Positions 5,278-8,904 of a stretch of DNA of 23,875 bases are shown one piece after another (within the stretch, counting starts at the first letter, position 1; the number at the start of each line of letters is the position of its first letter). Made by a program: the position numbers and the translations under genes. Source of the DNA: a virus; the IMG/VR virus record IMGVR_UViG_3300013014_000133, positions 1 to 23,875 of that record; one strand, 5' to 3'. The notes below the pieces were generated by a model that had not been told where the DNA came from, did no database searches, and saw only the letters and a list, made by a program, of their open reading frames with translations.

Positions 5278-5997
5278 TTAGTTGTTAAGTTTAGACTGAG
5301 TAGAATACAAATCATTAACAAATCCCCAATTAACCACTTTCCAAAAATTAGATACGTACTTGTCTCTTAGATTTTTGTATTTTAAATAATAGGCGTGTTC
5401 CCAAACATCAAGACCTAACAAGGGGTAACCTTTTTCTTCTTGATTATCCATTAAGGGATTGTCTTGATTTGCGGTGGTTACAATTTTCAATCTATTTTTA
5501 TCTGTAAGAATCAACCATACCCAACCTGAACCAAAACGAGATTTGGCGGCGTCTTCAAATTCTGTTTTAAATTTTTCAAATGAACCGAAAGTCTTTTCTA
5601 TTTTACTTTTGATGGGGTCGTCTAACTTTTGTTTTTTAGGCGACATCATTTTCCAAAACAACGCATGATTAAATGCGCCACCACCATTATTTCTAACTAT
5701 TGTATTAAAACTTGAAATGTCAGATATAATTTGTTCTAAGTCTAAATCTTTACCACTTATTTTTTCTAATTCTTTATTTAATTTATCAACATAACCTTTG
5801 TAATGTTTGTTGTAGTGAGTTTTCATTGTTTCACTATCAATAAAAACTTCTAAAGAATCATATTCATAAGGTAATTTATCTATACTTATTTTTTTTATTT
5901 CATTAATTAGATTAGTTTTTTGTGCTGAATCAATTTCTAACAACTGTTCTATTTTGTGAATTTTCTTTAAATAACTTTCAAAAATATTATTCCCCAT
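5278..5997 (-). CDS. Superoxide dismutase, Mn-type (Fe/Mn family)
   Basis: This 239-residue enzyme would convert superoxide to oxygen and hydrogen peroxide. All four metal ligands are visible: His61 ('MKTHYNKHYKGYV', with gateway Tyr69), His111 ('NNGGGAFNHALFW'), and Asp197 and His201 in the signature 'DVWEHAYY'. The 'GGG' before His111 and the Gln in 'ANQDNPLM' (Gln178) are the pattern of Mn enzymes such as E. coli SodA rather than Fe enzymes. An N-terminal extension of about 40 residues is helical and charged, with no signal peptide. The product should therefore be cytoplasmic or packaged in the virion. It sits between the helicase and neck genes, 12 bases after the helicase stop. A TATTTATA octamer lies 4 bases upstream of its ATG. 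Confidence 0.93.
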   Translation of the reverse strand: MGNNIFESYLKKIHKIEQLLEIDSAQKTNLINEIKKISIDKLPYEYDSLEVFIDSETMKTHYNKHYKGYVDKLNKELEKISGKDLDLEQIISDISSFNTIVRNNGGGAFNHALFWKMMSPKKQKLDDPIKSKIEKTFGSFEKFKTEFEDAAKSRFGSGWVWLILTDKNRLKIVTTANQDNPLMDNQEEKGYPLLGLDVWEHAYYLKYKNLRDKYVSNFWKVVNWGFVNDLYSTQSKLNN

Positions 5998-6009
5998 GAT
6001 ATATAAATA

Positions 6010-8904
6010 TCATCGATTACCAGAAATTAAATTTAACATTTCTTCTATTGTTGACGCTTCATCAAACATATCGTCACCCATTACTGTTGAGATAATTTTC
6101 TTTTTTCTATTTAAGATGTCGTAAATTGCACCTTCTATTGTATTTTCAAAAAGAGGATAATAAACTGATGTTGAATTTTTTTGACCAATTCTATGTGACC
6201 TATCCTCTGCTTGTGAGTGTTCAGCAGGAACAAAAGATAAATCATTCATAATAACGGCTTCGGCAGATGTTAAAGTAATACCAACACCAGCAGCCTTTAA
6301 GTTTCCAACAAATACTTTGATTTTATCATTTGTTTGAAACTCATCAACCGCATTTTGTCTGTGAAACTTAGAACAACTACCATCTAAATAAACCGCAGAT
6401 TTACCAAAGTGATTATAGATTTGATTTAACGTATCTGTAAAATTTGTAAATATAATAACCTTTTTACCTTGTTCTATAATGTTCTCCGCTAACTCGATTG
6501 TGTTATTAATTTTTTCTTGTGCGATTACTTTTCTTACTTTCATTAGTTTACCAAACTGAATTGTAAGTGACGATGACTCTTCAGGGTTTTGGTCATACCA
6601 ATCAAAATATTCACCCATTAATTCTTCGTAGTCTTTTGATTTTAGCCTTAAATAAACAGGTGTAATAATTTTTTCAGGTAAATCTAAAACTTCTTCTTTT
6701 AATCTTCTTAGAATATGTGTTGAGGTTCTTTCTCTTAATTCGTCAAGATTAGATGCTCCTGTAACGTTCCATACCTTTCTTTTCCCAACACTAAATTGAA
6801 ATCCATTACAATATCTTATGGCGTAAGCCATCCAATTTGCGGCAACAGGACTTCCAACGATATTTAATAAGTTATAATAATTCATTGGTCTTGATGTCAT
6901 TGGTGTTCCCGACAATAACCAAACCCTATTTGATTTACTTGCAATATCGTTAGCGATTTTTGTTCTTAAAGCTTTTGGATTAGCAATTACATGAGCTTCA
7001 TCCATGATTACTAAATCAAAATCAATTTTCATTATTTCTGATTTATCTTTTTCTTTGGCGTCATGGAAATTTTTTAGAATGTCGTAGTTCACAATAACAA
7101 AATCATGTTTATCTGAAAATTTCTTACCTTCTGCGATATAAACAGACCTATCTGAATAATTTGCAATCTCTTTTTGCCAATTTATTTTTAAAGATGCGGG
7201 ACAAATTATTAATATTTTTTTTGCACCTGTTTCTAAAGAAGCGATAATTGTAGAAGTGGTGTTATGTGTTACAATACAATGTTCTGTAACATATAGTTTA
7301 TCAGGAGCATCAACCGATATACAAACACTTTCTTCAAAACCAACTTTTTCAATATTTTTAATATATCTTCCGGTGGGGTATTTTTTTGGTTCAATGTATT
7401 TGTTAGCCTTTCGTTTTAATCTGAACGGATTCATACCCTTTGGTAATTTAATATTAACTCTATAAGCTAACTTACCTTTCTTTTTTTCACCCTTATAAGT
7501 ATATGTTGGGATACAAGTTTTGACTCTTGCAACTCCTCCTAATGTTTGTACTACTTCAACAACATCATTACAAAGTTGTTTTGATGTTGTACAATAATCA
7601 GTCCCAATAAAACTATTACCATTATACATACAATGCCCGTCAGTATCCATTAACCCTTGTAAAATTGATAATCTATTTTCAACTGATGAAAACTTGTATA
7701 TGTCGGGAATAAATTTAGTGTCTGACCCACATCCCATCAAGTTTAAATTTTTTAAAATTTGTATAACTTCATTTGTGTAACCATCGATTTTAGTTATTCT
7801 ATAACTGTATCTTGAATTTTTTTGTTTAACTATTTGTGAATTTTTTGGTAATGCGGTTTCAATATAACCCACAATTTCATCGTCTTTTGTTGTAAAATTA
7901 ATATTTTTTTGTGTTATACCACCATCACCTAATGTAAGTCCTAACAAATAAGGGTCAATCATAAGATTATCATTTCGTTCAAATTGTATTGGTTTCACTA
8001 TTGGGATTTGCCATTTATTATTTCCGTTTGGTGATTTATAATAAGTTTCAATTTCATATTCCTTATTTTTATTATGGTTAATGCCTTTAACTTTAATTTT
8101 ACCTCCCTCATACATTTGTTTTGTTGATAAAACTAAAGATTTTTTTAATCTTTCGTTTTTTCTATTTTTACCGTAATTAGGGGATGAAACAGACCATAAA
8201 TGTTCATCTCCTGATAAAATTGAAAACCCGTCATTAAATGTAATTTTATATGTTTCCTTAAACCCTTGTGGAAATACACCTATTACATTATGGGATTTAC
8301 CATCACTACCAATAACCTTATCACCAATTTTTATATCACCAATTTTTTTAGTACCTTTAGGTGTATAAACAGGCGTATTGACCGGTAAAAACTTACCCAA
8401 ACCCATGTCATCGGCCAAAATAAACTTTTTATTCCTTACGAGTTTTTCGATTGCCTCTTTTTGATGTTCCATGGGTGGTCTATGGGTGTATTTGTCATAA
8501 TCAATTGAAATGTTTTTAACTTCATTATCTTTTAGTAACGCTGATTTTGGCATCCAAAAGTCGTGTAAAGTTTCACCTGAAAAGATTTTACCCCAAATAT
8601 GATACGCCTTATCCTTTTCAACTAACAACTTTTCAACATATATTTCAGAAGGTTCTTTGGTATACATTTTATCTTCCATCAGTTTTTTACCAAAATATGA
8701 ATCTAACTTGACCCATTTTTTTGCAACTTTTGGTTGTGTTGTGTTATAATTATTGATATAATCCGCCTGAGGTCTTGTGGGTACGAAAGACTTACTGTTC
8801 TCTTTTTTGTGTTTTAAATTAAGGATATAGTTATTTGACCCTTCATAATCATCTAATATTAAAAGGGCTTTTGATTCGGGTGTTTTAGGCACAAAATCTT
8901 CCAT
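6010..8904 (-). CDS. SNF2-family DNA helicase/translocase with intein
   Basis: The precursor has 964 residues; excision of the intein would leave 587. The mature protein is a superfamily 2 SNF2-type ATPase. Walker A is 'DDMGLGK' joined to 'TTST' after splicing. DEAH box 'VIMDEAH', motif III 'LLSGTP', motif V 'AAGVGITLT' and motif VI 'EDRSHRIGQ' are all present, and the end resembles SMARCAL1-type enzymes. A role in remodelling forks or recombination intermediates, as UvsW does for T4, is inferred. The start chosen is the ATG at 8904: an in-frame extension to 9111 exists, but it overlaps the divergent gene at 8960 and encodes a low-quality sequence. The upstream region is A/T-rich with no Shine-Dalgarno. 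It leads the leftward block helicase-SOD-neck-small protein. Without splicing, the ATPase would lack an intact P-loop. Confidence 0.93.
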   Translation of the reverse strand: MEDFVPKTPESKALLILDDYEGSNNYILNLKHKKENSKSFVPTRPQADYINNYNTTQPKVAKKWVKLDSYFGKKLMEDKMYTKEPSEIYVEKLLVEKDKAYHIWGKIFSGETLHDFWMPKSALLKDNEVKNISIDYDKYTHRPPMEHQKEAIEKLVRNKKFILADDMGLGKFLPVNTPVYTPKGTKKIGDIKIGDKVIGSDGKSHNVIGVFPQGFKETYKITFNDGFSILSGDEHLWSVSSPNYGKNRKNERLKKSLVLSTKQMYEGGKIKVKGINHNKNKEYEIETYYKSPNGNNKWQIPIVKPIQFERNDNLMIDPYLLGLTLGDGGITQKNINFTTKDDEIVGYIETALPKNSQIVKQKNSRYSYRITKIDGYTNEVIQILKNLNLMGCGSDTKFIPDIYKFSSVENRLSILQGLMDTDGHCMYNGNSFIGTDYCTTSKQLCNDVVEVVQTLGGVARVKTCIPTYTYKGEKKKGKLAYRVNIKLPKGMNPFRLKRKANKYIEPKKYPTGRYIKNIEKVGFEESVCISVDAPDKLYVTEHCIVTHNTTSTIIASLETGAKKILIICPASLKINWQKEIANYSDRSVYIAEGKKFSDKHDFVIVNYDILKNFHDAKEKDKSEIMKIDFDLVIMDEAHVIANPKALRTKIANDIASKSNRVWLLSGTPMTSRPMNYYNLLNIVGSPVAANWMAYAIRYCNGFQFSVGKRKVWNVTGASNLDELRERTSTHILRRLKEEVLDLPEKIITPVYLRLKSKDYEELMGEYFDWYDQNPEESSSLTIQFGKLMKVRKVIAQEKINNTIELAENIIEQGKKVIIFTNFTDTLNQIYNHFGKSAVYLDGSCSKFHRQNAVDEFQTNDKIKVFVGNLKAAGVGITLTSAEAVIMNDLSFVPAEHSQAEDRSHRIGQKNSTSVYYPLFENTIEGAIYDILNRKKKIISTVMGDDMFDEASTIEEMLNLISGNR
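7261..8391 (-). mobile_element. Class 3 intein with LAGLIDADG homing endonuclease
   Basis: This in-frame insert of 377 residues lies between Lys171 and the Thr that completes the helicase P-loop. Block A starts at Phe1 ('FLPVNTPVYTPKG'), with no Cys or Ser nucleophile. Block B is 'LSGDEHLWSV' with His64 and Trp66. LAGLIDADG motifs are 'LLGLTLGDGG' near 149-158 and 'ILQGLMDTDG' near 243-252, indicating a homing endonuclease. Block F is 'SVCISVDAPDKLYV' with Cys357. Block G is 'IVTHN' with Thr375, His376 and Asn377, followed by extein Thr. Trp at B:12, Cys at F:4 and Thr at G:5 form the signature of class 3 inteins, which splice through the block F cysteine. Both endonuclease motifs keep an acidic residue, so homing may still be active. 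Confidence 0.92.

Follow-up and report, generated by a model that had tools for sequence, protein, structure and literature searches.

A probable mobile class 3 intein carrying a LAGLIDADG endonuclease interrupts Walker A of a phage SNF2-family helicase

We analyzed the viral record IMGVR_UViG_3300013014_000133 over its full length of 23,875 bases, referred to as the window herein, and found that the gene for its SNF2-family helicase is interrupted in the Walker A motif by what is very probably a mobile class 3 intein carrying a LAGLIDADG homing endonuclease. The intein lacks a nucleophile at its first residue, holds the residues that mark class 3, and is absent from most of the closely related helicases that we compared. 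It also looks to have moved between phages recently, leaving in the flanking DNA what is probably a one-sided co-conversion tract. The coordinates of the gene, the intein, and the features discussed below are collected in Table 1.

The product of the interrupted gene matches both Pfam SNF2-rel_dom (E 1.7e-27) and Helicase_C (E 2.1e-17), which makes it an SNF2-family helicase, as the first-pass annotation of this DNA had proposed, and it also matches PHROG 62, DNA helicase (E 4.7e-104). The SNF2 match is stretched to residues 147-758 because the 377-residue insert sits inside the domain. Read on the minus strand, the insert (F1...N377) is free of stops and in frame within the 964-residue helicase open reading frame (ORF), flanked by ADDMGLGK and TTSTII. 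Using the C-extein alone as query against viral contigs, we took the best 80 helicase loci from 211 relative-coding stretches; some of the 80 are near-copies, so that they do not amount to 80 independent cases. The site GLGK/TT (a slash marks the insertion point) is uninterrupted in 71 of these 80 loci, eight hold an intein that ends THN/TT, and one is truncated and starts too late. The intein need not be present at this site, and its ends are sharply defined; from the translation and the empty GLGK/TT relatives, the coordinates 7261-8391 given in the first-pass annotation are correct to the base. A single insert is recognized in the window helicase, although some relatives hold two. A search of the whole window with the NCBIfam model intein_Nterm (TIGR01445) returned no match at E up to 0.001, and this model therefore misses the window intein.

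To place the residues that distinguish the intein classes, we aligned 68 inteins by MAFFT under three settings, with Mycobacterium kyorinense DnaB-1, Ghost gp214, Makemake TerL, PhiPA3 gp233, and Alice gp175 as reference rows. As comparators we used a mycobacterial DnaB-1 intein, the TerL and gp214 inteins of mycobacteriophages, and the structures of MchDnaB1 and MsmDnaB1. Under all three settings, the His, Trp, Cys, Thr, His, and Asn residues of the window intein share columns with the same residues in all five references. In the class 1 rows of the same alignments, B:12 is Phe, Val, or Met, F:4 is Asp (Val or Thr under one setting), and G:5 is Val, Ala, Ser, or gapped, except in gp41-1, where it is Thr. 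One setting displaced the F:4 column for four of the six class 1 sequences displayed but for none of the class 3 rows. Pairing with MchDnaB1 (6rix) by HMMER concurs in that Cys357 stands opposite Cys124, a match in which the C-terminal stretch alone scores only 1 bit (MchDnaB1 numbering from excerpts of PMC5222942 and PMC7664689), and Cys357 is the sole invariant Cys across 22 aligned relatives. Class 1 inteins use a Ser, Thr, or Cys nucleophile at position 1; class 3 inteins need none there. In the window intein, position 1 is Phe, and the residue that follows the intein (+1) is Thr. The first-pass annotation had described an insert without an N-terminal nucleophile, with Trp66, Cys357, and Thr375 as class 3 marks ahead of a terminal His-Asn; each was found where it had been placed, the three marks fall in the B:12, F:4, and G:5 columns, and no alignment to the contrary arose. 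With every named residue present, the insert is, as judged from its sequence, a class 3 intein.

Table 1 Features of the interrupted helicase gene in the window
Feature	Coordinates	Strand	Basis
SNF2-family helicase gene, 964-aa precursor (ATG at 8904)	6010-8904	minus	Pfam and PHROG matches
N-extein, 171 aa, ending in Walker A ADDMGLGK	8392-8904	minus	translation; empty-site relatives
Predicted class 3 intein with LAGLIDADG endonuclease, 377 aa	7261-8391	minus	sequence, alignments, AlphaFold2 model
C-extein, 416 aa + stop, beginning TTST; +1 residue Thr at 7258-7260	6010-7260	minus	translation; empty-site relatives
Phe1, intein position 1, no nucleophile	8389-8391	minus	translation
His64, block B:10	8200-8202	minus	alignment; His in 232/232 loci
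Trp66, block B:12	8194-8196	minus	alignment; Trp in 217/232 loci
First LAGLIDADG motif LLGLTLGDG, residues 149-157	7921-7947	minus	translation, alignment
Second LAGLIDADG motif LQGLMDTDG, residues 244-252	7636-7662	minus	Pfam, alignment
Cys357, block F:4, presumed initiating nucleophile	7321-7323	minus	alignment; Cys in 224/227 loci with a residue there
Thr375, block G:5	7267-7269	minus	alignment; Thr in 227/227 loci with a residue there
His376-Asn377, block G:6-G:7	7261-7266	minus	translation, alignment
Probable co-conversion tract: C-extein DNA matching donor type L005, not empty backbone L084	6757-7260	minus	informative sites

The AlphaFold2 model of the intein, built with 22 relatives, has a mean predicted local distance difference test score (pLDDT) of 90.1 and a predicted template modeling score (pTM) of 0.88. 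Its whole-length structure matches are led by PI-SceI (1ef0: Z 27.2, 3.6 Å, 337 residues). Both endonuclease Asp residues are retained, Pfam LAGLIDADG_3 matches intein residues 240-299 (E 9.9e-9), and the two motifs with their acidic residues together with the PI-SceI-like fold identify a predicted LAGLIDADG homing endonuclease. The top entry consisting of a splicing domain only is the class 3 MsmDnaB1 (6bs8: Z 18.7, 1.4 Å over 123 of 125 residues), and the next are MchDnaB1 (Z 18.1), class 1 Prp8 (Z 17.3 and 17.1), and gp41-1 (Z 17.0 and 16.8). We treated Z differences below 1 as ties, and the Prp8 inteins lie within 1 of MchDnaB1; moreover, many class 1 structures come out ahead of the class 3 AceL NrdHF intein (Z 14.6). 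Because of these near-ties and the low rank of AceL NrdHF, structural ranking leaves the class unsettled.

Evidence of recent movement comes from comparing the window with filled and empty relatives. The intein DNA shows 0 differences over 1,131 positions from that of contigs L004 and L005, whose exteins are 92.2-95.7% identical to the window and whose DNA is 72.2-72.7% identical upstream of the gene and 78.0-78.2% downstream. For contig L084, whose site is empty, identity to the window is 97.3% and 97.6% in the neighbors and 93.8% and 93.0% in the N- and C-exteins, respectively. We defined informative sites as those positions where L005 and L084 differ. For the first 500 nt of the C-extein, the window matches L005 at 63 of 64 informative sites; in the remaining helicase it matches L084 at 39 of 51 sites and beyond the helicase at 249 of 258, with the switch from L005-like to L084-like DNA falling near 6745-6757. 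Two further empty backbones concur, with 62/66 and 61/65 donor-like sites in the tract, and contig L002 has the same mosaic (62 of 64 sites) with two differences in its intein. Since the intein has no differences between exteins that are 4-8% apart, we read the tract as the mark of homing, probably with one-sided co-conversion of ∼500 bp of flank, in a transfer that may have run either way. Synonymous divergence (dS) of the intein stays below that of the C-extein in nine of ten comparisons (the exception being L019), all of which share the window and some of whose values are near saturation.

Several points weigh against this account. The N-extein side has no clear co-conversion tract, the first 100 nt holding six donor-like sites, 12 backbone-like, and three that are neither. 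Close to the junction, the DNA of L004 is mosaic as well (32 and 31 of 64 sites). At 92-96% identity to the window, the exteins of L004 and L005 far exceed the neighboring genes (72-78%), so the whole helicase gene may have been exchanged or may simply be more conserved. The contigs are metagenomic and chimeric assembly is possible in principle, though L002 repeats the mosaic. Finally, both splicing and DNA cleavage by the window intein are putative. The closeness of these exteins and the metagenomic origin of the contigs would suit an intein that has long passed down vertically and has not moved by itself in recent times, its identity to L004 and L005 being due to helicase exchange, strong constraint, or assembly error. 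Purifying selection does act on the intein, for which the ratio of nonsynonymous to synonymous divergence (dN/dS) against the window is ∼0.10-0.29 in 11 of 11 relatives; this counts in favor of our main reading and is compatible with vertical descent as well. However, such descent must contend with an intein free of differences between exteins that have diverged, with the lower intein dS, with a shared tract that stops well within the gene, and with the recurrence of the mosaic in L002, and we consider it quite unlikely.

To see how far the signature holds, we scored 232 loci, made up of 80, 80, and 56 from contig searches and 16 from phage records. The 56 were drawn from 79 further loci, of which 22 contigs were duplicates and one, L268, was truncated; among the phage-record loci are ESh36, probably a truncated class 1 intein, and the truncated Alsa_3. 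The junction was read in 75 loci of one 80-locus set, as L066, L067-L069, and L075 have no readable junction. Removal of near-copies at 90% left 168 distinct relatives which, having been gathered by similarity to the window intein, show conservation within the family: Trp at B:12 in 157/168, Cys at F:4 in 165/166, and Thr at G:5 in 166/166. Across all loci B:12 is not Trp in 15, nine of which have Phe, and excerpts of PMC7891396 report 6.1% deviation at B:12, so non-Trp forms were already known. The three loci without Cys at F:4 represent one free-standing degenerate ORF found in three contigs (L067-L069). This intein-derived ORF of 385 aa has no helicase extein, carries Gly at F:4, Cys at B:12, and Asp for the final Asn, and retains the LAGLIDADG motifs; from these features it looks like an intein turned lone endonuclease. 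We also observed a 162-kb phage contig, the record of L024 (G010), with three places that match the window intein.

Position 1 is as variable as F:4 is fixed. Among the 161 distinct relatives in which it could be read, it is Ala in 98, Gly in 19, Cys in 12, Ser in 10, Phe in seven, Leu in five, Met in four, Val and Asp in two each, and Ile and Gln in one each, making 11 kinds of residue; the other seven of the 168 rows were unreadable, and the readings were made by pattern, with the single Ile and Gln not checked by eye. On a tree of 59 rows, position 1 changed at least 21 times, a count that leaves out L168 and scores Ghost and Makemake as Ala from guessed intein starts, as these two inteins have no GK junction and show gaps at position 1 in the alignment. 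In contrast, gp41-1-type class 1 loci have Cys1 in all 23 examined of 79 fetched. A variable position 1 with a fixed Cys at F:4 is the pattern that class 3 chemistry predicts. The Phe at position 1, which the first-pass annotation had called unusual, is indeed uncommon, but it is not unique, and because position 1 is free across the family it is unremarkable for the mechanism.

The degenerate ORF in L067-L069, together with a dead class 3 intein described in excerpts of PMC3196547, gives some substance to the idea that the window intein no longer splices and is retained just for its endonuclease, in a helicase that the phage can dispense with. Against this, the splicing residues of the window intein are all intact, dN/dS is well below 1 in both the intein and the C-extein, and the helicase frame is intact on either side, all of which make a splicing-dead intein very unlikely. 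A class 2 intein, in which Thr+1 would attack the N-terminal junction directly and Cys357 would serve a structural role only, would also suit Phe1, as class 2 inteins likewise have no position-1 nucleophile (excerpts of PMC3196547), but the near-invariant Cys at F:4 and invariant Thr at G:5 among the distinct relatives are class 3 marks and the same excerpts, as of 2011, know class 2 inteins only from KlbA, which leaves this reading extremely unlikely.

If the window intein follows the chemistry of class 3, Cys357 would attack the Lys-Phe1 bond and take the N-extein as a block F thioester, and Thr+1 would then accept the N-extein. Cyclization of Asn377 would leave the exteins joined, with GLGK-TT and thereby the ATPase site restored. 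The footprints in the flanking DNA suggest that the endonuclease would cut the empty GLGK/TT allele in a co-infecting phage and that the gap would be repaired from the intein allele, with the ∼500 bp of flank copied along.

The relationship of the window intein to others was further assessed with a tree of 69 inteins, made from splicing domains only over 117 columns; position 1 was masked, as were the three columns of the class signature. A group of seven conventional class 1 inteins, of which three come from Mycobacterium kyorinense and four are second helicase inteins, split from the other 62 with support of 97/93. The 62-row side holds the window intein, the mycobacterial DnaB-1 and mycobacteriophage TerL and gp214 references, and the class 1 gp41-1, so that the tree supports kinship of the window intein with the class 3 references, yet with a class 1 intein on the class 3 side it is by itself no proof of class. 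There gp41-1 pairs with the LW81 PhoH intein (90/77). When all eight class 1 rows were forced together, the arrangement was not rejected (approximately unbiased test, p-AU 0.342), and the placement of gp41-1 is not significant. Owing to the few columns, the long class 1 branches that meet, and the unsettled bootstrap, we put no weight on the branching order within the class 3 side.

Second inteins such as those in this tree come from related helicases that hold another intein besides the class 3 one at Walker A. They have Cys1, VYDL in block F (with Asp at F:4), and Cys at +1, and by these residues they are class 1. Their site is motif VI (AEDR/C) in L053, L057, L058, L263, and L266, and the DEAH box (DE/CH) in L021 and L022, where the intein ends VSN.

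Other relatives vary in the signature itself. L052 and L054 have Cys1, Phe at B:12, and Cys at F:4; at the signature positions they differ from gp41-1 only at F:4. L330 (LW81 PhoH) has Cys1, Ile, Cys, and Thr, and L332 (JA-1 TerL) has Ala1 with Asn. These four may stand between class 1 and class 3. That phage class 3 and gp41-1 class 1 inteins make up one interconverting lineage, in a family holding natural in-between forms, is a tentative proposal that we think unlikely. Excerpts of PMC3196547 and PMC7664689 disagree on how class 3 and class 1 inteins relate, and a family in which position 1 is free and some members hold both nucleophiles is useful for this question: if the forms with Cys1 and Cys at F:4 can use either nucleophile for splicing, the contested path from one class to the other could be tested directly. 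The possible gp41-1 link, the transfer footprint, the double-intein relatives, and the degenerate free-standing copies all go beyond the first-pass annotation.

Elsewhere in the window we found phage genes for DNA polymerase B, head-tail adaptor, tail sheath, tail tube, and baseplate hub. A gene for Fe/Mn superoxide dismutase lies at 5278-5997 on the minus strand, directly downstream of the helicase in this tailed phage, and a PHROG search of it gave no match at E up to 0.001. The same search at E up to 0.001 gave no match for the ORF at 25-504 on the plus strand, which encodes a long Thr-Pro repeat.

Among known systems, class 3 inteins are no longer the small group that the first-pass annotation took them to be, as excerpts of PMC7891396 (2020), which define the class by a position 1 other than Cys and a Cys at F:4, count 1,701 of them in NCBI nr, 82.5% with LAGLIDADG motifs. 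Excerpts of PMC3196547 describe class 3 inteins as one clade with a proposed phage origin and mention the Deinococcus radiodurans Snf2 intein which, by that description only, shares with the window an SNF2 host and the class 3 mechanism. The mycobacterial DnaB-1 inteins (MsmDnaB1 6bs8 and MchDnaB1 6rix) resemble the window intein in their non-nucleophilic position 1, Trp at B:12, Cys at F:4, Thr at G:5, and THN end, in an N-extein ending GK (SVGK in MchDnaB1, GVGK in M. kyorinense), and in the fold of the splicing domain, as the Z scores above indicate. Unlike it, they are mini-inteins without an endonuclease in a bacterial replicative helicase and are 27-28% identical in structural alignment.

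Two class 1 inteins share other features with the window intein. For gp41-1, a class 1 split intein of phage gp41, these are Thr at G:5 and the best sequence match in the PDB, which is to gp41-1 with grafted WCT residues (6riz, E 1.1e-13); it differs in its Cys1, Phe at B:12, and Asp at F:4, in being split, and in having no endonuclease in the piece compared. PI-SceI, the yeast VMA1 intein, has the same arrangement of a HINT domain with an inserted LAGLIDADG endonuclease, but its chemistry is class 1 and its identity to the window intein is 15-17%.

Close counterparts are also found in cultured phages. PhiPA3 gp233 and the helicases of PS119XW (both from Pseudomonas phages), Papperlapapp (Brevundimonas), and Erythrobacter phage L02 match both SNF2 and Helicase_C over the Pfam cut-offs, and their inteins have LAGLIDADG_3, insertion after GK, and the WCT residues in common with the window. 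All belong to other phage groups; the inteins of the latter three are 34.8-35.7% identical to the window intein, and position 1 in these phage SNF2 inteins is Ala, Ser, Met, or Gly rather than Phe. Alice gp175 has a Helicase_C match and no SNF2 match. The intein-bearing helicases L324 (Papperlapapp), L328 (Alice), and L336 (PS119XW) appear in public phage records under the labels helicase, DNA helicase or DarB-like antirestriction, and hypothetical protein, and none of the entries examined mentions an intein. The window helicase itself is distant from these records: the best place for its C-extein is below 60% identity in all 1,389 matching phage records, with the 15 rows listed at 27.7-31.4%. 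Among the results listed by searches of the open-licence literature, none dealt with a class 3 intein in the SNF2 helicase of an uncultured phage. Class 3 inteins in phage SNF2 helicases are already known from PhiPA3 gp233, and the window intein is a further example of modest novelty. To that group it adds an uncultured phage lineage as a class 3 intein host and, in what appears to be a clear natural record, one transfer between phages whose neighboring genes differ by 22-28%.

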